A stretch of 17,280 bases of DNA from Pseudomonadota bacterium (lineage in GTDB: Bacteria > CALINM01). Shown piece after piece: positions 1-17,280 of the stretch. The translations under genes and the position numbers were made by a program. Within the stretch, counting starts at the first letter, position 1. The number at the start of each line of letters is the position of its first letter. The notes under the pieces were generated by a model. That model saw only the letters and a list, made by a program, of their open reading frames with translations, had not been told where the DNA came from and made no database searches. The DNA lies in NCBI GenBank assembly GCA_026415985.1, contig JAOAGA010000035.1:1-17280 (forward strand), read 5' to 3'.

Positions 1-19
1 AGATGTGTATAAGAGACAG
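1..19. other. Residual Tn5 mosaic-end / Nextera adapter
   Basis: The first 19 bases read AGATGTGTATAAGAGACAG, which is exactly the hyperactive Tn5 mosaic end found in transposase-based library adapters. It is at the very edge of the window and interrupts an open reading frame. It is best read as untrimmed adapter at a contig end. Bases 1-19 should not be treated as genomic, and the residues they would encode in the neighbouring gene are false. Confidence 0.95.
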
Positions 20-589
20 GCCCTGCATTGAAGAGCTCATAATAAACGGAATAATCTCTACTGGTCCAGCCTTTACACCCATCTGAACGCCTACCTGCAT
101 ACCATATAAAGAAACAGAGTAAGAAGAAGAGCTGTTAATAAGTCCTGTTGTTTTTGTTGTCCCGTTTATGGCGGTTATGGTAGGGCCTAAAAAAACGATC
201 ATACTGACTATATCGGTCTTAAAAGGTTGTAACTCAAGATTAAAACTCAAATTAACATTAGCTGCTTCCTGTTCCGTCTTTAATCCGGGAGTTTTTATAT
301 CTCCTGAGGTAGAATAAACCCCTACAGAAAAATCACCTGCAAAATAATCTGAAAAGGCTTTTCTTCCTATTAGGTTTAAACCTGCACCGGTCATATCAAC
401 TGTAGTATTAGGGATAGTTCCATCATCTTCAACGGTCAAATAACTTAACCCAAACTTGAAATCGCTCTTTCCTTCAGAAAAAGAGGGGGATACAATTGGC
501 GGTGGTGTGATTGAAAGATTAGTTTGATTGGCGTAGACATTAAAAGCTGATAAAAAGAAGATAAAAAATAACAAAAAAGGTTTCTTCAT
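20..589 (-). CDS. Secreted or outer-membrane beta-barrel-like protein, 3' end missing
   Basis: The frame opens at an ATG (589-587) with a perfect Shine-Dalgarno (AAGGAGG, 594-600) four bases upstream. It stays open for about 190 codons until it runs into the adapter at the contig end, so the C-terminus is missing. The first 20 residues (MKKPFLLFFIFFLSAFNVYA) form a clear Sec signal peptide with a likely cut after Ala20. The mature part is rich in Ser, Thr, Gly and alternating hydrophobic residues (for example FKFGLSYLTV, FAGDFSVGVY, VNLSFNLELQPF), which suits amphipathic beta strands of an outer-membrane barrel. I do not recognise a family, and the function is unknown. It follows aroB by 53 bases and has its own candidate promoter, so it need not belong to the pil-aro operon. 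Confidence 0.8.
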
Positions 590-593
590 ATTA

Positions 594-600
594 CCTCCTT
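594..600 (-). promoter_or_regulatory. Strong Shine-Dalgarno of the truncated membrane-protein gene
   Basis: AAGGAGG on the minus strand lies four bases before the ATG at 589. It is the best anti-16S match in the window and fixes the start of the truncated gene. Confidence 0.8.
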
Positions 601-623
601 TTTTTATAAATAATAATGTAATA

Positions 624-652
624 ATTTTAGCTAATTTACAGATTACAAACAA
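624..652 (-). promoter_or_regulatory. Candidate sigma-70 promoter for the truncated membrane-protein gene
   Basis: Read on the minus strand, TTGTTT (652-647) is followed after 17 bases by TAAAAT (629-624). The -10 matches consensus at five of six positions; the -35 matches at three. It overlaps the aroB stop codon and would start transcription roughly 25-30 bases upstream of the ATG. I see no hairpin plus T-run terminator between aroB and this gene, so read-through from aroB is also possible. Such matches are common in AT-rich DNA. Confidence 0.35.
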
Positions 653-1734
653 ATTTGATTTTTATTTAGATTATAATAACCTTCAAGGGCCATGTCTAAT
701 AGTCTCTCATCAACTATCTCTCCGCAACTTGCCTTTCCGATATCTTTCAGAAGCACCCACTCCACTTCCTTGTTTTTTCTTTTTTTGTCATAAATAAAGC
801 TTTCTTTCATTCTGTTAACCGGATATTTTGCCTTTAAGCTATAATCATATTTTTTCAAAAGACCTATAATCCTTTTTAACTTGTTTAAACTTAGAAAACC
901 CCTTAGATAACTTAGATAGGATTCAAAGGCTATGCCCTGTGCAACGGCAAAACCATGCATTATCTTCCAGTTAGACAATCTCTCCAAGCTGTGTCCAAAG
1001 GTATGACCGAAATTTAAAATGGCTCTTAAACCACCTTCTTTCTCATCTTTAGTTATAACCTTTATCTTAATATTTTGAGCAACAGAAATAATTTTATCAA
1101 TCAACTCCTTATCAACAGCCATAATCTTTTTTTGATTTTTCTCCAGAAGGTCAAAAAGTCCTTTATCTGAAATCAATCCCGCCTTTATAATCTCTGCAAG
1201 CCCCGATAAAAACTCATTTCTATCAAGACTTGATAAATAGTTTGTATCTGAAATTATGTAATCGGGTTGATAAAAAGTTCCAACGAGATTTTTGCCGGAT
1301 CTTAAGTTGAAGCCGGTCTTGCCACCAATAGAACTATCTACCATGGAGAGTAAGGTAGTTGGTATGTGAATTAACTTCATCCCTCTATGATAGGTGCTCG
1401 CAGAAAATCCCGCTAAGTCACCTATGACACCTCCCCCAAAGGCTATAAGACAGGAATTTCTTGTTGCCTTGTTTTCCGTAAGGAAATTATAAATTTTCAT
1501 GACAGAACTAATGTTTTTATACCTCTCACCATCTGGCAAGGTATATAAAAAAAACCTGTTTCTTAAAATATCCCTTATTTTATATCCCCACAAATTCCAA
1601 ACCTTATGGTTTGTTACAATATATGTACCATTATAGTTATTCAAAATATCCTTCAACGCATCAGTGGAATTAATTCCGCTGATAATAATGATCTCTTTTG
1701 AGCTTTCTCTGATTTTTATTAGTTTTTTTTCCAT
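643..1734 (-). CDS. aroB: 3-dehydroquinate synthase
   Basis: This cytoplasmic enzyme converts DAHP to 3-dehydroquinate, the second step of the shikimate pathway, using NAD and a divalent metal. The 363 residues match the family length. Seen motifs are DGERYKN (68-74), the glycine-rich GGGVIGDLAGF (100-110), PTTLLSMVDSSIGGKTG (125-141), and NFGHTFGHSLE (241-251). Likely metal ligands are E181 (GLAEIIKAG), H244 and H260. The last motif reads HGFAVAQG, where many family members have HGEAVA. The ATG start overlaps the end of aroK by 16 bases, which suggests translational coupling. It is the last gene of the pil-aro run. The DAHP synthase and the later aro genes are not in the window. Confidence 0.96.
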   Translation of the reverse strand: MEKKLIKIRESSKEIIIISGINSTDALKDILNNYNGTYIVTNHKVWNLWGYKIRDILRNRFFLYTLPDGERYKNISSVMKIYNFLTENKATRNSCLIAFGGGVIGDLAGFSASTYHRGMKLIHIPTTLLSMVDSSIGGKTGFNLRSGKNLVGTFYQPDYIISDTNYLSSLDRNEFLSGLAEIIKAGLISDKGLFDLLEKNQKKIMAVDKELIDKIISVAQNIKIKVITKDEKEGGLRAILNFGHTFGHSLERLSNWKIMHGFAVAQGIAFESYLSYLRGFLSLNKLKRIIGLLKKYDYSLKAKYPVNRMKESFIYDKKRKNKEVEWVLLKDIGKASCGEIVDERLLDMALEGYYNLNKNQICL

Positions 1735-2240
1735 TTAAGATACTCTTCGATGATTTCATTTGAAATATTTTTAATTTCTTTTTGATCACAATCAATTATA
1801 AAATGGGCCTGAAGATAAAATTTTTCTCTTTCATTTAAAAGACTTAATATTTTAGTCTCATCTTTTCCAATTATAACCGGTCTCTTATCTTTTTCGTCGA
1901 AAATTTTTAATCTGTTAAGCAACTCTTTACCTGTCAACCGAAGATATACTACAAACCCTGTCTTTTTCATTATATCCATATTGTCAAAAAAACAGGGGAC
2001 TCCGCCTCCCGTCGATATAACCGTTTTATCTCTCTGAGAGAGTTCTAAAAGTAATTCTCTCTCTTTTATTCTGAAATACTCTTCCCCATTTTTTGCAAAT
2101 ATATCTTTAATGGAGATACCCTCTCTGTTTTCTAAAATCTCATCCATATCCAAGAAATCGTAATCCAAATTTTTTGAGAGAACTTTCCCGGTAGATGTTT
2201 TTCCTGACCCCATAAAGCCGGTTAGATATATCTTTTCCAT
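1719..2240 (-). CDS. aroK: Shikimate kinase
   Basis: It phosphorylates shikimate at the 3-hydroxyl with ATP in the cytoplasm. At 173 residues it is the usual size of this single-domain P-loop kinase. The Walker A loop GFMGSGKTS spans residues 8-16. DMD (31-33) supplies the Mg/shikimate aspartates, R57 in EEYFRIKE and the GGG at 78-80 (STGGGV) fit the shikimate pocket, and R120 (KRPVI) is the lid arginine. The ATG lies inside the last codons of aroC (19-base overlap), and the 3' end overlaps aroB by 16 bases, so aroC, aroK and aroB appear to be translated as a coupled set. Confidence 0.96.
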   Translation of the reverse strand: MEKIYLTGFMGSGKTSTGKVLSKNLDYDFLDMDEILENREGISIKDIFAKNGEEYFRIKERELLLELSQRDKTVISTGGGVPCFFDNMDIMKKTGFVVYLRLTGKELLNRLKIFDEKDKRPVIIGKDETKILSLLNEREKFYLQAHFIIDCDQKEIKNISNEIIEEYLKWKKN

Positions 2241-3421
2241 AAATGATTTATTGAATCAAGATAGCTGTTGAAAGAACTGGTTATATCATTTATATTATCG
2301 GAACCAAATTTTAATAAAAACTCATTCATAATCCCATAGGCTAACATACTTTCTGCGACAACCGCACAAGCTGGTACCGCAGAAACATCAGACCTTTCAA
2401 AGGATGCTGACTCAGGTTTCATGGTCTTTATATTAAAAGATCGCAAAGGCTTTTTAAGTGTAGGAATGGGTTTCATAAAAACTGTAAAAACTATATCTTC
2501 TCCGTTTGTAATTCCACCCTCTATCCCGCCTGCAAAATTCGTCTTTCTATAACAACCCCTTTTTTTATTGAAAAATATTTCGTCATGAAATTCAGAACCT
2601 TCAGTGGCATTTGCAAAAAATCCTGCACCTAAAGATACCGCCTTAACAGCAGGAATACTCATAAGTAACCCACTTAAAATACCATCAATCTTCCTATCAA
2701 ACTGACAGTGAGAACCTAATCCGGGGAAAAGACCTTTAGCCACTACGGTAAAAACTCCACCTAAGGTATCTCCTTCCTTTTTTGCCAAATCAATCTTTTC
2801 TCTAACCTTTTTTATGGTATTTTTATCGGCAGGTATCCTTATATCGTTATCTTCGGCATTTAAAAAAAGCTCTTCCGGATCAATCTCCTTTTTAAGTAAC
2901 TTATTCAGCATATCTTTTGTATTAAGGCCAACACCGCCAATCTCCAATACAAAGCTGTAAATTCTTATCTTAAACAACTCCAAAAAAGACTTACACATAG
3001 CACCTACTGCTACCCTTCCCGCAGTCTCTCTTGCACTTGATCTTTCTAAGATATCTCTTATATCATTTCTTCTGTATTTAAGCAGTCCTGCCAGATCTGT
3101 ATGACCGGGTCTTGGTTTTAAAACTTCTCTGTCAGAAATCTTATCTGCAAAAGGGTACATTATTTTTTCCCAGTTTGCATAATCTCTATTTATTATTTCC
3201 ATTGTCACAGGAGCTCCTGTAGTCTCTGCAAATCTAATGCCAGAGGTAAATACAACCTCGTCTTTTTCTATGGACATCCTACCGCCTCGTCCATAACCTG
3301 TCATCCTTCTCTTTAACTCATTATTAATAAAAGAGGGGTCAATCTTGACCCCTCCGGGATAACCATCTATTATAACGGTGAGTTTAATACCATGGGACTC
3401 ACCGGCAGTTAAAAACCTCAC
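2222..3421 (-). CDS. aroC: Chorismate synthase
   Basis: It converts EPSP to chorismate, the last common step of the shikimate pathway, using reduced FMN, and is expected to be a cytoplasmic tetramer. The 399 residues fit the longer bacterial class. Signature segments are TAGESHG (5-11), GYGRGGRMSIEKD (42-54), RPGHTD (104-109) and RSSARETAGRVAVGA (127-141), with DVSAVPACAVVAES near residue 345. The start is GTG at 3421-3419; its first bases share GTGA with the pilQ stop, so it is coupled to pilQ. The need for reduced FMN is a metabolic link to the riboflavin genes elsewhere in the window, though the two sets are in different transcription units. Confidence 0.97.
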   Translation of the reverse strand: MRFLTAGESHGIKLTVIIDGYPGGVKIDPSFINNELKRRMTGYGRGGRMSIEKDEVVFTSGIRFAETTGAPVTMEIINRDYANWEKIMYPFADKISDREVLKPRPGHTDLAGLLKYRRNDIRDILERSSARETAGRVAVGAMCKSFLELFKIRIYSFVLEIGGVGLNTKDMLNKLLKKEIDPEELFLNAEDNDIRIPADKNTIKKVREKIDLAKKEGDTLGGVFTVVAKGLFPGLGSHCQFDRKIDGILSGLLMSIPAVKAVSLGAGFFANATEGSEFHDEIFFNKKRGCYRKTNFAGGIEGGITNGEDIVFTVFMKPIPTLKKPLRSFNIKTMKPESASFERSDVSAVPACAVVAESMLAYGIMNEFLLKFGSDNINDITSSFNSYLDSINHLWKRYI

Positions 3422-6303
3422 GATGCCTCAACCTCCTTAATGGGCTTTATTATGCTTGGTGTTAAAAATATCAACAATTCCCTGTTTTCGACTGCCTTTG
3501 CCTCTTTCTTAAAGAGCCAACCTATAAGGGGAATATCCATAAGGAAAGGGACCCCACCTTTGCTAACCGTTTCTTTGTTTCTGATAATACCACCTATAAC
3601 TATTGTCTGCCCATCTCTTACTAATATCTCTGTAGTGGCCTCGTTTTTATCTATGCTCGGGACACCACCTGCACTTCTAAGGGCTGTGTTTGGATTGTTA
3701 TTGCTTACTTTAACCTTAAGTATTATTGAGTTGTCCGGAGTAATTCTCGGTGTTACAGTAAGTTGTAAGCTGGCATCTATAAACTGGGTTTGTGTTCCTT
3801 TATCAGATAAGGTCTCGTAGGGGATTGATGAACCCTGTTGTATATTTGCCTCTACATTATTTAATGTAGTAATCTTAGGTCTGGAAAGAATCTTTCCTAC
3901 ACCTTTGTTTTCCATTGCTGAAAGCTGAATATCGAGTCCTGCACCACTTCTTAGGTTCACAAGAGCAAAGTTTATACCACCCCCTGCCCCTGCTCCTATT
4001 GCTGCAGGCAGATTAACCATATATGGAGCAGGCGTTACACCTGTTCCAGTTAAGTCCAGAGATCCCATATTACCTACATTAGTAGGATTAGGTCCACCAA
4101 CACCCGCTCTATATCTATCTCCTATTGTCTGAGATAATTTTACTCCCCACTGAATACCCATCTCTTTACTAAAATCGGAGCTCGCCTCTACAACCCTTGC
4201 TTCAATTACAACCTGCTGTGGGGGGGTATCTAATTTTACTATCAGCTTCTTGGCTTCATCAATATTATCTTTTATGTCGTTTATTATAAGAGAGTTATTT
4301 CTTTTATCGATAGTTACGCTACCACGAGAACTCAGAAGAGGTTTAATCTTATCAACAAAATCATTTGCTTCCGCATAATTAATGGGTACTATTTCAAGTA
4401 TCAGGTTTTCAACCTTTTCCCTAATCTTACTCGCAGCAAGAAGATCCTCCTGCTCCCTCTTAAGTCTGTCCTTAGGCATAACTCTTAAAATATTTCCAAC
4501 CTTTTTCATACCTAAGTTATTAACTTCCATAACAACATCAAGCACCTGATCCCAAGGGACTTCCTCAAGCTGTATGCTTAACCTGCCTTTAACATCATCA
4601 CTGGTAACGATATTCAAAATCTCGCCGTCTAACTTGGCAACCTCCGTTAACAGCTTGAAGATATGCTGTATCTCTGCATCTTTTAGATTGATCGTTATAG
4701 GTCTTCCTTTATATCTGCTATCTATCTGTTGCTTCTGTTTATCTTCCTTTGTTTCAGAAACCGCTGGCTCTTCCTTAGATTTAATAGTTATAACTGTTTC
4801 TTTAGCCTTCTCTTCCTTTTTGACCTCTATCTTCTTTTCAGGCTCTTTCTTTTCTTCCTTTTTGACAACATCTATCTTTTTTTCTTCCTTAGGCCTTATC
4901 TCCTCTTTTGGTTTTTCCTCAACCTTAGCCTTTTCTTCAGTCTTTACAGGTTCTTTCTTCTCTGCTTTTATCTCTTCCTGCTTAGGTTCCGCCTTTTTTT
5001 CTACAGCAATAACTTCTTCTTTAGGTTTTGGTTTAACCTCTTCCTTAGGTTTCTCTTCAATCTTTGGTGCCTCTTTTTTCTCTATCCTGCTTTCCTCAAC
5101 CTTTGGTGTTTCTTTGGGTAACGGTGCAGGTGCAGGAGTAGGTGGAGTTACCTGCTTTACTAACTCCTTCGGTTTATCTTCAGCCTTTGCAATAACCTTT
5201 TCCTTATTAAACTCAATTACTATATCTTTTCCTGCCTTTTCTGTCCTGTAACTTATTGGATCCTTTAAAATTGCAACAAACCTAACCCTATTTTCTTCTT
5301 CCGGTTTAACCTGATATAAAGTAAAGCTACTCAGAAGCTCACTGACCTCTTTTATATCATAGGTTTTCTGAATAGCCTTGTTCAGCCTTACACCTTTAAA
5401 CTCAAAGACCAGAACGGTATCACTAAGCTTATAGACTTTATAATCTGCGTTATGAATATCCTTAAATCTAAATAAATTTCTCTTGGGTTCAGGTATAAAA
5501 TCGACTGTATCAAGAGTCAAATAGATGACTTTTTCATCCTTTTTCTCCATTTCTTCTGTAGATAGCTCAATAACAAGCTTATCCTTTTCTGCCCTTGAGA
5601 TAAAAACAGGGACTTTATCAATGTTTATATCTATAAAAAGTCTTGTTAGATTGGGAAAGGGTTCAACCCTGATGGACTTAACAATATTATTATTTGTTAT
5701 AAAATTTTTCTGAGACAGACTATACTTGGCGCTTTGAATATCAAAAACAAGTCTTAAAGGGTTTTTTAGTACATAGTTTAAAGCATCGGGTTTGCCGGAG
5801 GTCTCAACTATGGCAACAAACTTTTTATTATCACCGGAAAAAAGTATATTGTTTATTGTTATAGGTTCTGACTTGGTCTGTTCTTCCTTGACAAATGTAT
5901 CTTTTTTTATATAAACAGTTATTCCCTGTGCAAGCCTCTCTATGGCAAACTCCGGCTTTTTTGTAAAAAGAATCTCAATCTTTCCGGTATAGTTCTCCTG
6001 ACGTCCCAATTGTGTAATTTTGTAAGACTTGATAAACCCCTTGTTTACCACCTTCTCACCGACGAAATTCCCAAAATCGATTACAGGAAATTCAAGAATA
6101 AGTTTTGGCGGGTTTTCTTCACTGTAGCTGGTATATACAAGACTTTTGTCTGAAAAAACCTTGAAAAGATAGGACGTGTTGTCTTCAGCTAAATCTATCG
6201 ACTGTACCTTCACTCTGAGTCTCTCAATATTCTGCGAGTGAGAAAGGCTAACAAATGATATGTAAATTATAAAGAAAAAAATTGGAATCTTTTTTAATCT
6301 CAT
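3418..6303 (-). CDS. pilQ: Type IV pilus secretin PilQ
   Basis: It forms the outer-membrane ring through which type IV pili extend. The 961 residues begin with a signal peptide (about 1-23, ending SLSHSQ). Three AMIN-like beta segments that would bind peptidoglycan follow (roughly 28-132, 147-250, 258-372). Next is a long Lys/Glu/Pro-rich linker (about 374-530), an STN/N0 domain (about 535-612), an N1/NolW-type domain (about 635-695) and the secretin barrel (about 695-955), which carries the hallmark GVPFLMDIPLIGWLF (917-931). It starts nine bases after pilP. The pilP stop and the Shine-Dalgarno share TAGGAG, and AGGAGCTTCCT there could fold into a very small hairpin. The 3' end overlaps aroC by four bases. 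The linker is longer and more charged than I would expect. Confidence 0.96.
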   Translation of the reverse strand: MRLKKIPIFFFIIYISFVSLSHSQNIERLRVKVQSIDLAEDNTSYLFKVFSDKSLVYTSYSEENPPKLILEFPVIDFGNFVGEKVVNKGFIKSYKITQLGRQENYTGKIEILFTKKPEFAIERLAQGITVYIKKDTFVKEEQTKSEPITINNILFSGDNKKFVAIVETSGKPDALNYVLKNPLRLVFDIQSAKYSLSQKNFITNNNIVKSIRVEPFPNLTRLFIDINIDKVPVFISRAEKDKLVIELSTEEMEKKDEKVIYLTLDTVDFIPEPKRNLFRFKDIHNADYKVYKLSDTVLVFEFKGVRLNKAIQKTYDIKEVSELLSSFTLYQVKPEEENRVRFVAILKDPISYRTEKAGKDIVIEFNKEKVIAKAEDKPKELVKQVTPPTPAPAPLPKETPKVEESRIEKKEAPKIEEKPKEEVKPKPKEEVIAVEKKAEPKQEEIKAEKKEPVKTEEKAKVEEKPKEEIRPKEEKKIDVVKKEEKKEPEKKIEVKKEEKAKETVITIKSKEEPAVSETKEDKQKQQIDSRYKGRPITINLKDAEIQHIFKLLTEVAKLDGEILNIVTSDDVKGRLSIQLEEVPWDQVLDVVMEVNNLGMKKVGNILRVMPKDRLKREQEDLLAASKIREKVENLILEIVPINYAEANDFVDKIKPLLSSRGSVTIDKRNNSLIINDIKDNIDEAKKLIVKLDTPPQQVVIEARVVEASSDFSKEMGIQWGVKLSQTIGDRYRAGVGGPNPTNVGNMGSLDLTGTGVTPAPYMVNLPAAIGAGAGGGINFALVNLRSGAGLDIQLSAMENKGVGKILSRPKITTLNNVEANIQQGSSIPYETLSDKGTQTQFIDASLQLTVTPRITPDNSIILKVKVSNNNPNTALRSAGGVPSIDKNEATTEILVRDGQTIVIGGIIRNKETVSKGGVPFLMDIPLIGWLFKKEAKAVENRELLIFLTPSIIKPIKEVEAS

Positions 6304-6312
6304 AGGAAGCTC

Positions 6313-6840
6313 CTATCTAACCTTTTTTATAGGTATAAATATCTCATTTTTCTTTTCTTTGCCTTTGTCGTCTATGATAACTTCCTCTATATAGACACCT
6401 TCGGCTGAAATCCTTTTTATTCTTGCATCTTCCTGTCCAATAGGTGCGCCCTCTTTAACAACCCACCCCTTCCCTTCAGGGTCTTCAAAAATAGCACTTT
6501 TAATCTTTTTGTTAGTCATTATGCCTATTAGTTTATATTTGTCCAGCTCATACCTCTCTGTAGGAGATGGTTTTTGTTTTTTCGGTTTAACCTGTTTAAC
6601 TTCCGTTTTAATCAAAGGGGTATAAAAGGGATCTCTTATGGCATAAAAATTATATCTTGGCATATTGGCAAGCTTAGCGGATATTGTCTGAAAGGTTATT
6701 GATGGTTTAGAGGTTATATTAGCCATAGTTGCCTTTACATCCTGCTTAAGATTGGTCTGATCCTGCACCTTATTTTCTCCGCAGGAAACAACCACTAAGA
6801 CAAAAACTAAAAAAACCAGTATTAATCTATTTTTTTTCAC
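6313..6840 (-). CDS. pilP: Type IV pilus inner-membrane lipoprotein PilP
   Basis: PilP joins the PilN-PilO inner-membrane complex to the periplasmic domains of the secretin PilQ. I choose the GTG at 6840-6838: it has GAGG nine bases upstream and gives KK plus a hydrophobic stretch ending in a lipobox (VVSC, lipidated Cys20). The alternative ATG at 6870 adds ten very basic residues and has no good ribosome site, but would leave the lipobox intact. The mature protein has a disordered segment, the typical RDPFYTP motif (about residue 68 onward), a short Lys/Pro stretch, then the small beta domain (YELDKYKLIGIM onward). About 175 residues is normal for PilP. It overlaps the 3' end of pilO and is followed closely by pilQ. 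Confidence 0.92.
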   Translation of the reverse strand: MKKNRLILVFLVFVLVVVSCGENKVQDQTNLKQDVKATMANITSKPSITFQTISAKLANMPRYNFYAIRDPFYTPLIKTEVKQVKPKKQKPSPTERYELDKYKLIGIMTNKKIKSAIFEDPEGKGWVVKEGAPIGQEDARIKRISAEGVYIEEVIIDDKGKEKKNEIFIPIKKVR

Positions 6841-7465
6841 CTTTCTTTTCCTCTTTCTTGGGAAGCTCATCTGGGTTTAAGAACCTGAAAGTTATAGCTT
6901 TAGTATCTGTTGTCAAAATAATTTTACCGTCTTTAGGAGTTGGAGTTTTAATACTCAATCCTGTAATGTGTATTATTCTCGGGTATCTCGCAATTGTCTG
7001 AAGAAACTCGCCTGTCTCCCTAAATCCACCACTAAATCTAAGATTTATTGGTATCTCGGCATAAAAATCCTTTTTTATCTCTTTCTCTGGTTTAAAGCTT
7101 AATATTTCCAGGTTATATCTTTTAAGATTATTTTCTATTGAAGATACAACAGATGGTATTTCCTCGTTGTTTGGTAAAACGGACATAGAATATTTAAGTT
7201 CCTTTTCAAGCCTCTCCACCTCAGCCTTAAGTCTTGGCAGGTTGGCAGCATCTCTTTTTTTAGCATCCCTTTTTTGCGTAAGTTCTAAAATCTCATCATT
7301 TAAAGACTTAAAGGACTTATACTTACCATAACCTACTAACCCTATGTAAAGACCAAAAACCAATAGTATAAAGCAGGATACAATGATAATTTTTATCTTT
7401 AATGACAGCCCCAAAATAAAATCAAGATTTATATTTTTCAGATCTATTTTTAAGTTTATAGCCAT
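6827..7465 (-). CDS. pilO: Type IV pilus inner-membrane protein PilO
   Basis: PilO pairs with PilN to form the inner-membrane alignment complex of the pilus machine. I choose the ATG at 7465-7463, since GAAGGG lies nine bases upstream, rather than the in-frame TTG at 7486 that would add seven residues. The resulting protein has 212 residues. A short cytoplasmic tail is followed by one membrane span (about 25-46: IIIVSCFILLVFGLYIGLVG), a coiled coil rich in Glu and Lys (about 52-90), and a periplasmic ferredoxin-like domain (about 95-195). The C-terminus is a Lys/Glu tail. The gene starts six bases after the pilN stop and overlaps pilP. Confidence 0.93.
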   Translation of the reverse strand: MAINLKIDLKNINLDFILGLSLKIKIIIVSCFILLVFGLYIGLVGYGKYKSFKSLNDEILELTQKRDAKKRDAANLPRLKAEVERLEKELKYSMSVLPNNEEIPSVVSSIENNLKRYNLEILSFKPEKEIKKDFYAEIPINLRFSGGFRETGEFLQTIARYPRIIHITGLSIKTPTPKDGKIILTTDTKAITFRFLNPDELPKKEEKKGEKK

Positions 7466-7470
7466 AAATT

Positions 7471-8007
7471 TTAACCCTTCAGACAAATAAGATTAAATTT
7501 AATAATCTTAACATTACCTTTAACCTGCTGATCTAAAGAAATCAGGTTTACTTTTGTAAACAACCCGACTCTCCCCAGTCTTTCCATAAAATTCGAAACA
7601 TCATTAGCACTATAGGCTTCTCCGTCTATAGCAACTTCTTTATCCTTATCCTGCAAATTAGTCAACCAGACGCTTTCAGGAACCGCTTCTCCTATCTTGT
7701 AAACCAGCTCTGTTGAAACAATTCTTTTTGTATTCAAAGTATCAATCACACCTAACTTTCTTTCGATTTCAGACTTTTGTCCTTTAATCTTATCAATCTG
7801 ACCTAACTTTTTATCAAGCTCTGCGATCTCATTTTTTAGCTCATCTCTTTCTGTTATTTTATCTTTCTCATAGGCAACCACTCTCCAATGAACAATACCT
7901 ACAATCACTAAAGAAATAACCATAGCAGAAATCATAATAACAAACTGAAACAGTATCTTTTCCTTCTTTTCGATCTCTCTGTAAGGTAAAAGATTTATCT
8001 TAATCAT
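7471..8007 (-). CDS. pilN: Type IV pilus inner-membrane protein PilN
   Basis: PilN contacts the cytoplasmic PilM through its N-terminal tail and pairs with PilO in the periplasm. The 178 residues begin with the PilM-binding INLLP motif (4-8), followed by a membrane span (about 19-40), a coiled coil (about 45-88) and a fimbrial-assembly type alpha/beta domain (about 95-175). The ATG is the natural start because it places INLLP at residues 4-8. The nearest Shine-Dalgarno-like run (GAGGGGG) is 12 or more bases away, which is a poor spacing. A 46-base gap separates it from pilM, the largest gap in this operon. Confidence 0.94.
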   Translation of the reverse strand: MIKINLLPYREIEKKEKILFQFVIMISAMVISLVIVGIVHWRVVAYEKDKITERDELKNEIAELDKKLGQIDKIKGQKSEIERKLGVIDTLNTKRIVSTELVYKIGEAVPESVWLTNLQDKDKEVAIDGEAYSANDVSNFMERLGRVGLFTKVNLISLDQQVKGNVKIIKFNLICLKG

Positions 8008-8053
8008 CTATGCTTAAAAACCCCCTCTTATCTTTGACACTTATAAAATTTAA

Positions 8054-9103
8054 TCATTTGTCTCCCAATCTTCTCATTCCAAGACCCACTGCCACACCAA
8101 AATGGTGATAGCTTATATCCTGCTGGCTTTTATCAATAGGAATATTGGTAAAAGGATTACCTATTATTGCATTAATCCCTGATTTATCTTTAATTTTTTC
8201 CGGCAATCCTTTCAGTTTTGAAGATCCGCCGAAAAGAAAAACATTTTCAATAATATCGTTAGGATTTGAGTTATAGAAAAAGTCTATGGTTCTTTGTATC
8301 TCTCCAGTTAAAACATTTATCTCCTCGTCAAGAATCTCGTTTACACTGTTCATGTCAACGTCTTTCTTGACACCAACCTTTACCTCTTCGGCTTCCTCAA
8401 AGGTAATCCCCAAATTTTTCTGAAGCGCCTCTGTCACCTTATTTCCCGCAACATTTATCGTTCTTGTAAAGAGGGAATCCCCTCCCTTAACAATATTTAT
8501 ATTTGTAAAACTTGCTCCTATGTTACATATAAGGTTTGTCTTATTTGTAAAAGACGGATAGTTAACCTCAAACATATTCTGAATGGCAAAAACATCTATA
8601 TCAACAACCATAGGCTCAAAGCCAAGATCTCTGATTATAAGCAGATAATCATCAATCAACTCTTTTTTTGCTGCCGCCAGAAGAACATCCATCTGTCCCT
8701 GAATATTTTCTGTTGCTCCCAATATTTTAAAATCCAGATAGACATCCTGTATACTAAATGGCAGGTATTGCTCCGACTCCCATTGTATGGAGTTTGCAAA
8801 CTCCTCTTCTGTAACGATTGGAACAGATATCTTTTTTACAATTACTCCCTGACCAGATACAGAGAGGGCAACATTTTTTACTGTTGGCTTAACTGTCTGA
8901 ACAATATCTCTTACCGCATCGGTAAGAGCAACTGAATCCATTATGGCACCATCAATTATTATATCTTTGGGAATCTGTTTAATACCTAACTTCCTGACTT
9001 TATAATCTTTTCTTGTCTTTTTAAGCTCTACCAGCTTGATACACTGAGACCCTATATCAATACCGAAGAGGTCTTTTTTTGACTTAAATAGTCCTTCAAT
9101 CAT
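8054..9103 (-). CDS. pilM: Type IV pilus actin-like ATPase PilM
   Basis: PilM is the cytoplasmic, FtsA/actin-fold partner of PilN. At 349 residues it is the usual length. Nucleotide-binding motifs are visible in order: phosphate-1 FGIDIGSQCIKLVEL (13-27), phosphate-2 LICNIGASFTNINIV (191-205) and the adenosine loop NVFLFGGSSKLKGLPE (287-302). IQWESEQYLPF (106-116) is also typical. The ATG overlaps the end of the upstream HTH gene by eight bases (ATGATTGA), so PilM synthesis is probably coupled to translation of the regulator. Confidence 0.95.
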   Translation of the reverse strand: MIEGLFKSKKDLFGIDIGSQCIKLVELKKTRKDYKVRKLGIKQIPKDIIIDGAIMDSVALTDAVRDIVQTVKPTVKNVALSVSGQGVIVKKISVPIVTEEEFANSIQWESEQYLPFSIQDVYLDFKILGATENIQGQMDVLLAAAKKELIDDYLLIIRDLGFEPMVVDIDVFAIQNMFEVNYPSFTNKTNLICNIGASFTNINIVKGGDSLFTRTINVAGNKVTEALQKNLGITFEEAEEVKVGVKKDVDMNSVNEILDEEINVLTGEIQRTIDFFYNSNPNDIIENVFLFGGSSKLKGLPEKIKDKSGINAIIGNPFTNIPIDKSQQDISYHHFGVAVGLGMRRLGDK

Positions 9104-9854: not shown

Positions 9855-10277
9855 TTAATCAGATTTTTTATTGGTTACAAATTTTTTATAAAACTTATCG
9901 AGGATTCCGTTTATAAACTTTTTTGATTCCTCTGTACCAAACTTTTTTGCCAATTCTATAGCTTCATCTATGGCAACTTTGAAAGGAACATCTTCTATAA
10001 ACAAAAGCTCAAAGGCACTTAATCTGAGAATTGCCTTATCAACTTTATGCATTCTGTCCAATATCCAGTTTTTTGATAGTGATTGTATCTTTTCATCTAT
10101 ATCTTTTATGTTTGCTGAAACTCCTCTTACGATATAATTTGAATAATCCTTTACTTCTTCCTTTTCATCCTGTCCTTCCCAGTAAATCCTTATACACTCC
10201 TCAGGAGAATAGCCGGACATCTCAAGCTGATAAAGAATTTTAATGGCATTTTCTCTTGCCTTTCTCCTGTTTTTCAT
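9855..10277 (-). CDS. nusB: Transcription antitermination factor NusB
   Basis: NusB pairs with NusE (ribosomal protein S10) on boxA RNA and supports rRNA transcription antitermination. The 140 residues match the family. The N-terminal RRKARENAIKILYQLEM (4-20) is the arginine-rich RNA-binding helix. ILRLSAFELLF (83-93) and VAIDEAIELAKKFGTEESKKFINGILD (101-127, key residues I103, D104, E105, N123) are the typical C-terminal helices. Its ATG overlaps the ribH stop by one base (TGATG). Linkage of nusB to ribH is widespread in bacteria. The next gene begins one base after its stop but is disrupted. Confidence 0.95.
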   Translation of the reverse strand: MKNRRKARENAIKILYQLEMSGYSPEECIRIYWEGQDEKEEVKDYSNYIVRGVSANIKDIDEKIQSLSKNWILDRMHKVDKAILRLSAFELLFIEDVPFKVAIDEAIELAKKFGTEESKKFINGILDKFYKKFVTNKKSD

Positions 10278-10738
10278 CAGGCAAGCTCCTTAATAAGCCG
10301 AGCCATCTCAATGGCCGATACTGCAGAATCATAACCTTTATTGCCTGCTTTTGTTCCCGCTCTTTCAATAGCCTGTTCAATGGTATCGGTTGTTAATACA
10401 CCAAATATAACTGGTTTACCCGTTTCAAGCCCAACAGCAGCAACACCTTTTGAGACTTCTGATGCTACATAGTCAAAGTGAGGAGTATTTCCTCTTATTA
10501 CCGCTCCGAGGGCAATAATGGCATCAAAATCTCTGTCTGCTAATTTTTTGCACATCAAAGGAATCTCAAATGCGCCGGGAACCTTATAAATCTCAATGGA
10601 ATTTTCGGAAACATTATGCCTTTTAAGTCCATCCAAGGCACCTAAAAGTAGCTGTTCAGATATAAAACTATTAAATCTGCTTACCACTATGGCAATTTTT
10701 AAGCCTTTGCCGTCCAGTTTTGCCTCTACTATTTTCAT
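10277..10738 (-). CDS. ribH: 6,7-dimethyl-8-ribityllumazine synthase
   Basis: It condenses the RibD product with dihydroxybutanone phosphate from RibBA to make lumazine, the penultimate riboflavin intermediate; family members build icosahedral or pentameric shells. The 153 residues are standard. Seen motifs are SRFN (20-23), PGAFEIP (54-60), [14 protein letters not shown] (78-91) with the likely catalytic H87, and AGTKAGNKG (127-135). The start is supported by AGGAGG five bases upstream. A 49-base gap separates it from ribBA; it holds a 10-bp palindrome but no terminator or riboswitch that I can see. Confidence 0.97.
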
Positions 10739-10787
10739 TTTTCCTCCTCGCTCAAAAAATTTAGGTTAACCTGCCTTATTTCTCAAA

Positions 10788-11990
10788 CTATATATTTTCA
10801 ATCATGTGTCCCATTTTTTCTTTTTTAGTTTTTAAATACTCTACATTATAATCTGTAGGTTTTATGACAATGGGCACTCTTTCTACAATTGTAAGATTAT
10901 ATCCTTCAAGCCCTTTTAATTTTTTGGGATTATTAGTTAAAAGCCTGATCTTTCTAAGACCTAAATCTGAAAGTATCTGGGCACCAATCCCGTAATCCCT
11001 TAAATCTGCCTTAAACCCCAGTGCTTCGTTGGCTTCAACCGTGTCTTTTCCTTTATCCTGAAGGTCATAGGCCTTTATCTTATTAAGAATTCCTATACCT
11101 CTTCCCTCCTGTGGAAGATAGAGAATTACACCCTTCCCCTCTTCTTCAATCATCTCCATCGCCCTTTTTAACTGATCACCGCAATCACATCTTAACGAAT
11201 GTAACACATCTCCCGTTAGACATTCAGAGTGAACTCTTACCAAAACTTCATCATCGGGACCTATTTCTCCCTTTTGTAAAACTATAGTTTCACCCGGTTC
11301 AATATCATTTACATAGACCATTATCTTAAACTCACCATACTTAGTTGGAAGTTTTGCCTCAGCCTCTTTTCTGACAAATTTTTCCGTACGCATTCTGTAG
11401 GCTATTATGTCTGCTATAGTCACAATAGGAATATCAAACTTTTTAGATATTTCCTCCAGGTCTGGCATTCTTGCCATTGTCCCGTCATCTTTCATTATCT
11501 CACATATAACTGAAGCAGGTCTTAATCCCGCCAATCTTGCCAAATCAACAGAACCTTCTGTCTGACCCGCCCTGACAAGTACACCTCCTTTTCTCGCCTT
11601 CAGAGGAAATACATGCCCTGGAGTAACAATATCGTCTGGAGTTGCCGATGGATTCACTGCTGTTAGGATTGTTGTTGCCCTGTCGTGGGCTGAGATACCG
11701 GTAGTAACCCCCTTTCTTGCCTCGATTGATACAGTAAAGGCAGTTCCAAATCTTGAAGTATTTCTGCTGACCATCATTGGTAAGTCAAGTTGCTTAACTA
11801 TTCCCTCATCTAAAGCTAAACAGATTAAACCTCTTCCTTCTTTTGCCATAAAATTAATAACTTCCGGAGTAACCTTTTCTCCTGCTATGGCAAAATCACC
11901 CTCATTTTCTCTATCCTCATCGTCTACGAGGATTATAATGCCTCCTTTTTTATAATGTTCTATAATCTTTTCCATCTTCTTTAGTATCAT
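10788..11990 (-). CDS. ribBA: Bifunctional DHBP synthase / GTP cyclohydrolase II
   Basis: It catalyses both entry reactions of riboflavin synthesis: ribulose 5-phosphate to dihydroxybutanone phosphate (N-terminal half) and GTP to the diaminopyrimidine (C-terminal half). The 400 residues fit a two-domain RibBA. The RibB half (about 1-205) has [10 protein letters not shown] (23-32) and [12 protein letters not shown] (96-107). The RibA half (about 206-400) has the zinc cysteines C257, C268 and C270 in [16 protein letters not shown], then [16 protein letters not shown] (293-308) and LTNNPKK (351-357). All key residues are present, so both activities are expected. The ATG at 11990 shares ATGA with the ribE stop and has GGAGG upstream; a second ATG at codon 6 is less likely. 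Confidence 0.97.
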
Positions 11991-12637
11991 AAAATACCGC
12001 CTCCGGAAAAACCTCTTGAAATAAGAAAGCCTTCACTCAGACTATCCTTACTTTCTTTTATAAAATTTTCAATATACTTACCAACTATATCAAACTCAAT
12101 ATTAACAAGGTCCCCTCTCTTCAGATATCTTAAATTAGTCACATTAAAAGTGTGAGGTATTATGTTTAATCTAATCATTCCGGTAAATTTTTCGTTTATG
12201 GTAAGACTTATACCGTTTATTGCAATAGACCCTTTATAAATGACATATTTATCAAAGCTTTTATCATAGGATATCTTAAAAATATAGAAATCACCTTCTT
12301 TTCTTGTCTCAACGATCTTTCCTACCGTATCGATATGTCCTGTTACAATATGACCTCCGAGCCGGTCAGAAAAAGAAAGGGCTCTTTCCAAGTTAACCCT
12401 ATCTCCAACTTTAAAATGTTTTGCAGTGCTAATATCCAATGTTTCCTTTGACACATCTACCTTGTAAGATCTTTCTTTTATCTCCGTCACTGTTAAACAA
12501 ATACCGTTTACCGCTATACTATCGCCAATCTTTGTGTTATTTAGAACTTTTTGGCATTCGATCTCAAATAACCTGCCGGAACTTCTTGCTGAGATTGATT
12601 TAACTATTCCTAACTCCTCTATTAGCCCCGTAAACAT
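11987..12637 (-). CDS. ribE: Riboflavin synthase, alpha type
   Basis: It dismutates two lumazine molecules to riboflavin and the diaminopyrimidine, and acts as a trimer. The 216 residues show the internal duplication of the family. The first barrel starts [10 protein letters not shown] and has [13 protein letters not shown] (38-50). The second starts near [10 protein letters not shown] (94-103) and has [12 protein letters not shown] (136-147) and IPHT (160-163). It is named ribE here, called ribC in some naming schemes. A 40-base gap separates it from ribD, with no clear Shine-Dalgarno. It overlaps ribBA by four bases. Confidence 0.96.
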
Positions 12638-12677
12638 AATAATTATATTAAACTTTTAAAGAGAGAAAAAACAAGTA

Positions 12678-13751
12678 CTAAAACCTCACCCATTCTACAA
12701 TTAAATCTTTATCTATCTTTTTTGTCTTATAATTGTCTAAATAAAAGGCAGTTTCAAGGGTTTTAAATCCGGCACCGGAAACAGATAAATTTCTCTCACC
12801 ACCCAGTATATAGGGTGTTAATATAACCATCAGTCTATCTACAAGTCTATTTTTCATCAATTCAAAGCTTAAGATACCCCCGCCTTCAACAAGGAGATTT
12901 TGTATTTTTTTTTCTCCTAAATCTCTCATAACTGTTTCTATATTCAGCCTGCCATCTGCTTTATCAACCACAACTGTTTCCGCTGGAATACCTTTTTCTT
13001 TTAGCTTACTACTGGCGGTATAGACCAAAACATCTCCTCTGCTTTTAAATAATTTTTCATCCCCCTTTAGTCTCCCCTCCGTATCGAGGACAACTTTAAG
13101 CAAATCCTTTTTTTTATGATAATATCTTATATCAAGAGAGGGGTTATCGGAAATTACCGTATTTATACCAACCATTATGGCGTCGGATTCAAATCTAAGT
13201 TTATGAATATATCTCAAGGTTTTTTCTGAAACAAGATATCTTGAACCCTTTAATGGTGCGTTCTTTCCATCTAAAGTTTCTGCAAATTTAAGGGTTACAA
13301 AGGGGGTTTTCTCAACTATATACTTGAAGAAAGGCGCGTATAATTTTCTCAGTTCATCTTCCAAAACACCTTCTTTTACATCAACACCGTTTCTTCTCAA
13401 TAATTCAATACCTTTACCTGCTACTTTCGGGTTTTTATCTCTTACTCCAACGACTACCTTTTTTATACCACTTTCTATTATCAGGTTTGCACAAGGCGGT
13501 GTCTTTCCAAAATGTGAACAAGGTTCAAGGGTAACAATTAAGATAGCCTTTTCTAAATCTTTTCTGTTGAGACCTTGAAGGGCAACAACCTCTGCATGAG
13601 GTCCGCCATATTTTTTATGATAGCCTTGACCTATAATCTTATTGTTTTTTACTATAAGAGCACCAACGGGAGGGTTGGGAGAAACGTAACCTATACCCCT
13701 CTTGGCAAGTGTCATAGCAGTTTTCATCAAATTTTCATAATTTAACTTCAT
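12678..13751 (-). CDS. ribD: Riboflavin-specific deaminase/reductase RibD
   Basis: RibD deaminates the pyrimidine made by GTP cyclohydrolase II and then reduces its ribose side chain with NADPH. The 357 residues are usual. The deaminase half (about 1-145) carries the zinc site H52-A-E54, C78 and C87 (PCSHFGKTPPC). The reductase half (about 148-357) has FVTLKFAETLDGK (151-163), VGINTVISDNPSL (194-206) and LLVEGGG (286-292). The start shares ATGA with the nrdR stop, so translation is likely coupled. No FMN riboswitch precedes it. Confidence 0.96.
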   Translation of the reverse strand: MKLNYENLMKTAMTLAKRGIGYVSPNPPVGALIVKNNKIIGQGYHKKYGGPHAEVVALQGLNRKDLEKAILIVTLEPCSHFGKTPPCANLIIESGIKKVVVGVRDKNPKVAGKGIELLRRNGVDVKEGVLEDELRKLYAPFFKYIVEKTPFVTLKFAETLDGKNAPLKGSRYLVSEKTLRYIHKLRFESDAIMVGINTVISDNPSLDIRYYHKKKDLLKVVLDTEGRLKGDEKLFKSRGDVLVYTASSKLKEKGIPAETVVVDKADGRLNIETVMRDLGEKKIQNLLVEGGGILSFELMKNRLVDRLMVILTPYILGGERNLSVSGAGFKTLETAFYLDNYKTKKIDKDLIVEWVRF

Positions 13752-14212
13752 TTTTTAGATGATTTTTTAAGAAGTTTTTCCAGTTCTTCGATAAACTGAG
13801 ACGGATCTTTAAAATCTTTGTAAACAGATGCAAATCTTACATAGGCTACATGGTCTATTTTCCTTAACTCTCTCATCACAAGCTCGCCGATAAACTGAGT
13901 GGATACCTCCTGCTCGCCATTTTCTATAACTGCGTTTTCAATCCTTTTGACAATTTCATCAATTTTATCGGCAGATATGGGACGCTTTTCAAGGGCCTTT
14001 TTCAAACCATTTTTAATCTTTTCAGAAGAAAAGGGCTCCCTTTTCCCGTCCTTTTTTATTACAAGGGGATAACTAAGCTCAATAATCTCTCTTGTTGAAA
14101 ATCTTCTGTTACAATTTAGGCAGGCTCTTCTTCTTCTGATCTCAGTACCGTCTTTGTTTGTCCTTGAATCCAATACCTTATCTTCTAAGAAACCACAAAA
14201 GGGACATTTCAT
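13748..14212 (-). CDS. nrdR: Ribonucleotide reductase repressor NrdR
   Basis: NrdR is a zinc and ATP/dATP-binding repressor of ribonucleotide reductase genes. The 154 residues match the family. The zinc ribbon cysteines are C3, C6 (CPFCG) and C31, C34 (CLNCNRRFSTRE), and RRRRA (26-30) is the DNA-contacting basic patch. The ATP cone spans about 48-138 (VIKKDGKREPFSSEKI onward). GGTGAT lies a few bases upstream of the ATG. No nrd gene is in the window, so its targets are elsewhere. Linkage to ribD and nusB is common in bacteria. A dCMP deaminase upstream gives it a dNTP-metabolism context. Confidence 0.96.
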   Translation of the reverse strand: MKCPFCGFLEDKVLDSRTNKDGTEIRRRRACLNCNRRFSTREIIELSYPLVIKKDGKREPFSSEKIKNGLKKALEKRPISADKIDEIVKRIENAVIENGEQEVSTQFIGELVMRELRKIDHVAYVRFASVYKDFKDPSQFIEELEKLLKKSSKK

Positions 14213-14245: not shown

Positions 14246-14689
14246 TTAATATTTAATAACCTCAATTTCAGCCTCTTTTATAAGCTCTTCGGAAAGCTCA
14301 TCAGGATAACCATCTAAATAGTAAATTTTTTTAACTCCCCCGTTTATCAACATCTTTGCGCAGATTGAACAAGGAAAGTTTGTGCAATACAAAAAAGAAT
14401 CAGATATGCTAACACCATAGAAAGCAGACTGTATAATCAGATTCTGTTCAGCATGAATCCCTCTGCATAGCTCGTGTCTTTGCCCTGAGGGGACATTTTT
14501 ACTTTCTCTGATACACCCCACTTCCAAACAATGTTTCAGCTGAGATGGTGCGCCATTGTACCCTGTTGCTAAAATTCTTTTATCTTTTACAAGAATAGCT
14601 CCTACCTGTCTTCTTATGCAGGTTGATCTTTTAGCTACAATCTTTGCAATTTCAAAGAAATACTCATCCCAATCGGGTCTTTTTTTCAT
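14246..14689 (-). CDS. Deoxycytidylate (dCMP) deaminase
   Basis: It deaminates dCMP to dUMP, feeding thymidylate synthase. The 147 residues and motifs fit the dCMP deaminase/ComEB family. The catalytic zinc site is H79-A-E81 (GIHAEQN) with C107 and C110 (PCSIC). A second Cys/His cluster (C54, C59, H72, C75) is typical of the family and may bind another zinc. [20 protein letters not shown] (29-48) is the family's N-terminal strand pair. Its ATG overlaps the stop of the RpiB-GlyA fusion (TAATG). SHMT upstream makes the methylene-folate that thymidylate synthase uses with dUMP, so the pairing makes sense. Some relatives are called comEB; I have no evidence of a competence role here. Confidence 0.93.
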
Positions 14690-16395
14690 TAAAAAAGATC
14701 CTTATAGATGGGGAACTTTTTACATAAATCAATTACTTCTTCTCTGTAATTTCTCTTTTTATTCATATTGTAAGGATCAAGAAGCAGATCCTTAATTATT
14801 TCCGCTATCTTAAGGGACTCTTTCTCTTTCATTCCTCTTGTTGTTATTGTTGGTGTTCCTATTCTGATACCTGAGGTTAGAGTCGGTGGTTTATCATCAA
14901 AGGGTATAGCATTTTTATTAACAACTACCCCTATTTCTTCAAGGGTTTTTTCTGCAGTTTTTCCTGTAATCCCTACCCCCGTCAAATCAAGGAGAAATAA
15001 ATGATTATCTGTTCCCCCGGAAATTACCCTGAATGGTTCTTCCATAAAAACCTCAGCCATTACCTTTGAGTTTGTCACAACCTGTCTCTGATAATCCTTA
15101 AACTCTTCAGTCATAGCTTCCCTGAATGATACCGCCTTCGCAACTATAGTATGAACGAGAGGACCGCCCTGAATACCCGGAAAAACCGCCTTGTCAACTT
15201 TATCTTTAAGATATTCTTTGCAAAGGATAAAACCACCACGGGGGCCTCTTAATGTTTTGTGAGTTGTGCTTGTAACTATATCTGCAAACGGAACAGGCGA
15301 CGGGTGGACACCGGCTGCAACAAGCCCCGCAATATGTGCCATATCAACCATAAAATAGGCACCTACTTTATCTGCAATGTTTTTAAATCTATCAAAATCA
15401 ATAATTCTTGAATAGGAGCTTGCGCCAGCAACTATAAGCTTAGGTTTGTTTTCTATGGCAAGTCTCTCTACCTCTTCATAATCTATAAGTCCGTCTTCTT
15501 TTCTTACACCGTAATGAACAACATTAAAAATTTTACTGACTATACTTACTGTTGCACCGTGAGTAAGGTGGCCACCATGGGCTAACTTCATTGTAAGTAT
15601 TGTATCTCCGGGGTTTAATACTGCAAAATAGGCTGACAGATTAGCAGCAGAGCCAGAAATGGGCTGAACATTGGCATGATCGGCATTAAACAGCTTTTTT
15701 GCTCTTTCAATAGCAATATTTTCTATATCATCACAAAACTCGCAACCTCCGTAATACCTCTTTCCGGGGTAACCTTCTGCATACTTGTTTGTAAACACAC
15801 TACCCTGTGCCGCGAGAACTGCCTTACTGGCAATATTTTCTGATGCTATGAGGACGATAGAATCCTGTTCTCTTTTCAGTTCAAGAGAGACTAAATGGGC
15901 TAACTGTTTATCATATCCCTCAAGTATGTCTACGACATTATATCTGCTTTTGTTTTTACTCTCAATTTCAATGATTTTATCCAATCTTTTCTGATGTCTT
16001 CCACCCTCAAAGGAGGTGTTAAGCCAGATATCAACATATTTTCTTGCACTTTCCTGAGAAAGATTATTCCCCCCTAAGACGAGTATATTAGCGTTATTAT
16101 GAAGCTTAGCAAATTTTGCTGTCTCTTCATCATTTATCAAAGCAGCTCTGACATTATAAAATTTATTAGCAACTATTGACATACCAATACCGGTTCCGCA
16201 TATCAGTATTCCCAGATCAAAGTCACCGTTACTTATCTTTTCCGCCACTTGAGAGGCAAAATCTGGATAATCTACCGATTCATTATCATTGTAGGCTCCG
16301 AAATCGAATACCGGAAACCCCTTTCTTTCCAAATAGCTTCTTAAGGATTCCTTAATCCTTATGCCTCTGTGGTCGCTTCCAATGGCTATTCTCAT
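14689..16395 (-). CDS. Fused ribose-5-phosphate isomerase B / serine hydroxymethyltransferase
   Basis: One 568-residue frame holds two complete enzymes. Residues 1-148 are RpiB, which interconverts ribose and ribulose 5-phosphates: SDHRG (7-11), catalytic C66 in [18 protein letters not shown]99, and GGRHQKR (131-137). Residues about 153-568 are a full-length SHMT (GlyA), which makes glycine and methylene-tetrahydrofolate from serine: LIASEN (182-187), [15 protein letters not shown] (203-217), and PLP lysine K380 in [14 protein letters not shown]. The linker is only about 5-10 residues. No ATG, GTG or TTG lies at the GlyA boundary; the nearest, TTG at Leu138, is inside RpiB. The ATG has AGGA six bases upstream and lies eight bases after fabF. 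Separate rpiB and glyA side by side is the usual order, so this looks like a fusion of neighbours. Confidence 0.93.
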
Positions 16396-16403
16396 AAAAA
16401 ATC

Positions 16404-17280
16404 CTATTCAAATTTTTTAAATATCAGTGATGCGTTTGTTCCCCCGAAACCAAAGGAGTTAGACATTGCGTATCTTATATTCACATTCCTTGCCTGAGCA
16501 GGGACATAGTCAAGATCACACTCACCATCTGAAGTCTCATAGTTAAGGGTTGGAGGAACAATACCTTCTTTTATTGACATTATTGTATAGATTGCCTCTA
16601 CTGCGCCTGCCGCTCCCAAAAGATGACCGGTCATAGACTTTGTTGAACTAACAGGAATTTTGTATGCTCTCTCACCAAAAATTTTTTTAATGGCAATTGT
16701 CTCAAACAAATCATTATAGTAAGTGGAAGTACCGTGGGCATTAATATAATCTATATCATCGGGACTGATTTTTGCATCAGAAATAGCCATTTTCATACAT
16801 CTATAGGCGCCTTCGCCTTCCGGAGCGGGCTGTGTCATATGATAGGCATCAGAGCCTAATCCATATCCAACCACTTCTGCATAAATTTTAGCCCCTCTCT
16901 TTTTTGCAAACTCAAGCTCTTCTAAAATTAAAATTCCCGCACCTTCCCCCATAACAAAACCGTCTCTATCCTTATCAAAGGGTCTGCTTGCCCTTGTCGG
17001 TTCTTCATTTCTGGTAGAAAGTGCCTTCATGGCACAGAACCCACCGATGGCAAGAGGTGTTATCGTGCCTTCCGCTCCTCCCGCTATCATTACATCTGAA
17101 TCACCTCTTAAGATACACTCAAAGGCTTCACCAATATTATGTGTGGAAGTGGCACAGGCGGTGACTACCGATAAATTGGGCCCCTTTGCGCCGTATTCCA
17201 TTGATATTAATCCCGGAGCCATATTGACAATACTGTAAGGAATAAAGAAAGGTGAGATCTTTCTCGGGCCACCTTCCATA
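16404..17280 (-). CDS. fabF: 3-oxoacyl-ACP synthase II (FabF), 5' end missing
   Basis: This condensing enzyme elongates acyl-ACP with malonyl-ACP in fatty-acid synthesis. The window cuts the gene: about 291 C-terminal residues are present, and roughly 120 N-terminal residues lie beyond 17280. The Met at the edge is internal and is not the start. The catalytic triad is complete: Cys in VTACATSTH, His in NAHGTST, and His in [12 protein letters not shown], with [12 protein letters not shown] near the C-terminus. Family members act as cytoplasmic homodimers. An acpP gene is expected upstream but cannot be seen. It ends eight bases before the RpiB-GlyA fusion, making it the first visible gene of the long operon. 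Confidence 0.96.

Follow-up and report, generated by a model that had tools for sequence, protein, structure and literature searches.

The window, a stretch of 17,280 nucleotides from a contig of a Pseudomonadota bacterium (JAOAGA010000035.1), carries on its minus strand a fused rpiB-glyA gene at positions 14689–16395, a merger of two housekeeping genes that encode a sugar-phosphate enzyme and a one-carbon enzyme. Read from the DNA of the window, this gene is one uninterrupted open reading frame of 568 codons that runs from an ATG start at 16395 to a TAA stop at 14691–14689, and its 568-amino acid product contains RpiB and then SHMT in a single open frame. The RpiB domain (PF02502) occupies residues 3–141 (15973–16389, minus strand) and the SHMT domain (PF00464) residues 159–534 (14794–15921, minus strand). 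The Pfam LacAB_rpiB match scores 183.8 bits against a cut-off of 24.7 and the Pfam SHMT match 547.1 bits against a cut-off of 27, with each profile covered essentially whole. The NCBIfam rpiB equivalog TIGR01120 (165.2, cut-off 138.65) and the SHMT model NF000586 (615, cut-off 335) agree with these assignments, and because the LacA and LacB equivalog models both score under their own cut-offs on the N-terminal half, we assign this half to RpiB rather than to LacA or LacB. The two halves align over essentially their full lengths with a stand-alone RpiB (PDB 3he8) and a stand-alone SHMT (PDB 3pgy), respectively; unlike the window protein, both of these are single-domain and unfused.

The residues expected to be needed for catalysis are retained on both sides of the fusion. 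Cys66 (codon 16198–16200, minus strand) and His99 (codon 16099–16101, minus strand) align with the catalytic residues of RpiB chains in the PDB, and the GTGIG loop of RpiB is present as CGTGIGMS. Lys380 (codon 15256–15258, minus strand), the PLP lysine, lies within the 14-residue SHMT motif. All three residues are invariant in an alignment of 14 fusions from eight families, and an AlphaFold2 monomer model built on this alignment has a mean pLDDT of 85, with both domains folding well. The original prediction of an in-frame RpiB-GlyA fusion with its family motifs and these three catalytic residues intact is thus borne out, and the protein looks functional, with both RpiB and SHMT activities predicted from its sequence.

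The junction, taken from one Pfam domain boundary to the next (residues 142–158; 15922–15972, minus strand), contains no in-frame stop codon and no ATG, GTG or TTG. From the last helix of RpiB to the first helix of SHMT, the AlphaFold2 model is unstructured only at residues 149–153 (15937–15951), which are modeled with lower confidence. These observations uphold the further claims that the linker is very short and that no start codon lies at the junction, so that a single polypeptide is expected.

The fused gene sits within a conserved operon on the minus strand. Upstream lies fabF (3-oxoacyl-ACP synthase II; 16404–17279), which is incomplete at the window edge, and downstream lies a ComEB-like dCMP deaminase gene (14246–14689), followed by nrdR, ribD, ribE, ribBA, ribH and nusB (9855–14212). 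The stop codon of the fusion overlaps the ATG of the dCMP deaminase gene in a TAATG at 14687–14691, an arrangement that suggests translational coupling of the two genes. G001 (locus L097), a relative in the same family but in a different genus, has the same order, fabF-[rpiB-glyA]-dCMP deaminase-nrdR-ribD-ribE-ribBA-ribH-nusB, and so do unfused genomes of Desulfobulbaceae (L101) and Desulfatitalea (L102), except that there rpiB and glyA are kept apart by a stop codon and a gap. The operon can therefore explain why the two genes are adjacent, but not why they are fused. Elsewhere in the window (643–9103), a by-eye reading of the translations places aroB, aroK and aroC directly beside a type IV pilus set (pilQ-pilP-pilO-pilN-pilM); these genes share their strand with the riboflavin operon.

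The adjacency of rpiB and glyA is ancient and is found in many phyla: among unfused genomes chosen by SHMT alone, regardless of fusion, 14 of 27 have separate rpiB and glyA genes no more than 1.5 kb apart. To follow the fusion itself, as the original prediction had proposed, we used a fusion profile to survey 386 broadly sampled bacterial genomes and found both domains in one uninterrupted frame in 12 of them, which belong to seven families (G000, G001, G022, G044, G267, G051, G367, G101, G239, G342, G213 and G072). Survey matches extended down to about 671 bits and the lowest-scoring fusion reached about 785 bits, so few fusions should be missing. Searches by phylum added G387, G389, G390 (at a contig edge) and G392. 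At least ten more fusions came from an organism-named sample: in Verrucomicrobiota (four of them Akkermansiaceae), in Kiritimatiellota, in Lentisphaerota and in one Acidobacteriota MAG; this sample was picked by likeness to the fusion through SHMT peptide patterns and represents only a sample of carriers. The fusion frames and their junctions were checked again in the DNA, and read-through matches with an internal stop were counted as separate genes.

Two candidates were rejected. Genome G232 stood out by a long RpiB frame, but it encodes SHMT in a different frame and is not fused. MT835680, a candidate phage-borne fusion, has separate genes, and its contig, with bacterial lpx-like and transporter-like genes, is probably no phage. 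The latter entry (L041, MT835680.1, positions 1–7951) is filed under 'Bacteriophage sp.' with human faeces as its source; it looks instead like a piece of bacterial chromosome, with adjacent rpiB, glyA and lpxA/lpxB-like genes.

Whether such a fusion was already on record had been left open in the original prediction, and it was: a protein of Methylacidiphilum infernorum V4, Minf_1669, was described in 2008 as an unusual combination of SHMT, low-molecular-weight phosphatase and RpiB domains, and was suggested to link serine metabolism with the pentose phosphate pathway (PMC2474590). The RpiB-GlyA architecture is thus known, and the window protein is a further example of it rather than an unusual case. 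Like Minf_1669, it joins RpiB and SHMT in one protein, but it belongs to a different lineage and consists of these two domains only; no LMWPc Pfam match was found in it, and RpiB begins at residue 1–3. All three domains of Minf_1669 do recur in a 764-amino acid phosphatase-RpiB-SHMT protein of an Akkermansia muciniphila MAG (L167:5383–7674). Other Akkermansiaceae loci (L106 and L123) encode RpiB-SHMT in which the phosphatase domain was not detected. The fusions of L167, the other Verrucomicrobiota, Kiritimatiellota, Lentisphaerota and the Acidobacteriota MAG resemble that of the window in domain order and in their short linker, but they are placed apart from it on the tree, and with the window proteins as probes no dCMP deaminase/nrdR/rib operon was detected beside them. 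In the open-access literature, we found no report of an rpiB-glyA fusion besides Minf_1669 and no biochemical study of any RpiB-SHMT fusion.

How such genes arise can be read from close relatives that differ at the junction. In family f21, four genomes are fused (G022, G387, G389 and G390) and keep the old glyA ATG with an AAGGAG before it, G169 has a TAA two codons upstream of the glyA ATG, and the genes are also separate in G307 and G386. Likewise, G044 is fused whereas its f43 relative G321 has a TAA at the junction, and G392 is fused whereas its f169 relative G189 has two TAA codons there. Since a junction stop is what distinguishes these unfused genomes from their fused close relatives, we conclude that fusion arises through loss of the rpiB stop codon. 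It has done so repeatedly. A tree of 86 rows, built from the two halves with the linker excluded, has 11 changes between the fused and separate states, six of them forced by well-supported branches, and a tree of 38 rows built in the same way has six changes (six to eight in bootstrap trees), of which five are forced. The root was not inferred, so that splitting after fusion may account for some of these changes. The organism-named sample, moreover, had been selected for likeness to the fusion.

We propose that the window gene very probably encodes a bifunctional enzyme with independent halves, an N-terminal RpiB and a C-terminal SHMT with a linker only a few residues long between them, which arose by in-frame loss of the rpiB stop in a conserved operon and which holds the two enzymes at a 1:1 dosage. 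In this ancient gene order rpiB already stood immediately upstream of glyA, and its stop codon would have been lost in frame, with the old glyA start retained at first and afterwards lost too, as in the window's family. Each half would then fold and act on its own substrates. RpiB and SHMT enzymes each form homo-oligomers whose active sites lie at, or close to, the contacts between subunits. The fused chain therefore has to pair at one of these contacts or at both, and we expect it to assemble via the homodimer interfaces of its halves. The consequence would be a fixed 1:1 dosage of RpiB and SHMT rather than substrate channeling; channeling is unlikely, being neither needed nor supported, because the two reactions share no metabolite.

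Taken singly, the find is a refinement of annotation, one gene being assigned both activities. As a set, the fusions form a natural series, from separate genes, to a lost stop with the start kept, to a lost start as well, and show operon neighbors repeatedly becoming a bifunctional enzyme. Recurrence across phyla is the most interesting aspect of this fusion. Should selection, and not just the closeness of the genes, lie behind that recurrence, a physical or regulatory connection of the pentose phosphate pathway with one-carbon metabolism would be indicated.

A metabolic role of this kind, in which the fusion couples flux through the pentose phosphate pathway to the supply of one-carbon units for making flavin, purines or thymidylate, perhaps with mutual regulation of the domains, seems unlikely to us. 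The repeated, independent origin of the fusion would fit such coupling, as would the gene content of the operon, which includes ribBA, dCMP deaminase and nrdR and also supplies flavin and deoxynucleotide precursors, and the authors who described Minf_1669 proposed a link of this sort between serine and the pentose phosphate pathway (PMC2474590). However, RpiB and SHMT have no metabolite in common, the same operon serves unfused enzymes, and close in-frame adjacency alone also predicts recurrent fusion. The original prediction had looked to the inputs of the operon for an explanation, with ribulose 5-phosphate feeding RibBA and methylene-tetrahydrofolate feeding thymidylate synthesis; the separate rpiB and glyA genes in the same operon of L101 and L102 speak against this, as does the lack of a common metabolite. 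A related idea, likewise unlikely, is that physical contact or mutual regulation between RpiB and SHMT already exists where bacteria with the ancestral gene pair make them as two proteins, and that the repeated, independent fusions fix this complex. If true, the fusion would reveal an unrecognized coupling of pentose phosphate and one-carbon metabolism.

It is very unlikely that the window gene yields two forms, the full-length fusion and SHMT alone from an internal start. Dual products are plausible in the f21 genus, where the old glyA ATG and its AAGGAG are still in frame inside the fused gene. The window gene and its G001 counterpart, in contrast, have no in-frame ATG or GTG in the stretch that leads from the RpiB end to the core of SHMT. 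The sole candidate internal start in the window gene is a TTG at codon 138, which still lies within the last RpiB helix and has no obvious Shine-Dalgarno sequence at good spacing. Initiation at this TTG, or proteolysis at the linker, could nevertheless be a source of separate SHMT. At four loci, L040, L093, L094 and L095 (of G022, G387, G389 and G390, respectively), the in-frame old glyA ATG is accompanied by a GGAG-type sequence, so that SHMT may be made there on its own as well as within the fusion.

Descent of all these proteins from a single ancient fusion, passed on vertically or by transfer and later split in some lineages, is highly improbable. Fusions do cluster in some groups, such as Verrucomicrobiota and their relatives, but placing all of them in a single clade is strongly rejected (AU p of about 1e-128), and so is a clade that unites the fusions of f43 and f169, two related families (AU p of about 2e-51). 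Families f21, f43 and f169 each mix fused and separate close relatives, and the linker sequences appear unrelated between lineages. Within the preferred account of repeated stop-codon loss, the window fusion looks like one with its own origin.

That the genes are in truth separate, with a stop codon or frameshift hidden by an assembly or sequencing error, is hardly credible: the source is one contig of a draft genome in 161 contigs, but the same architecture is seen in many other lineages and the same fusion in the independent relative G001 all but rules such an error out. This relative, the nearest one examined, is 70% identical and comes from a separate assembly, and it retains the operon and the linker motif RYNVVDI; checking a close relative for a stop or frameshift between the domains therefore leaves the fusion claim standing. 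Among the other genomes of the window's phylum, G001 alone yielded the two genes. In the third genome, G002, of the same family and listed as 92% complete, neither SHMT nor RpiB was found, which is probably an assembly gap.

Within the source genome, which is 84% complete, we found no second RpiB (PF02502), no second SHMT (PF00464 above the cut-off) and no RpiA (PF06026), so both halves of the protein are probably needed. Judged by this gene content, both activities of the cell probably come from the fused chain alone, although a further rpiB or glyA copy may be missing from an assembly of this completeness. One fusion-bearing genome, at locus L056 (G390:C78), carries an additional stand-alone RpiB copy.
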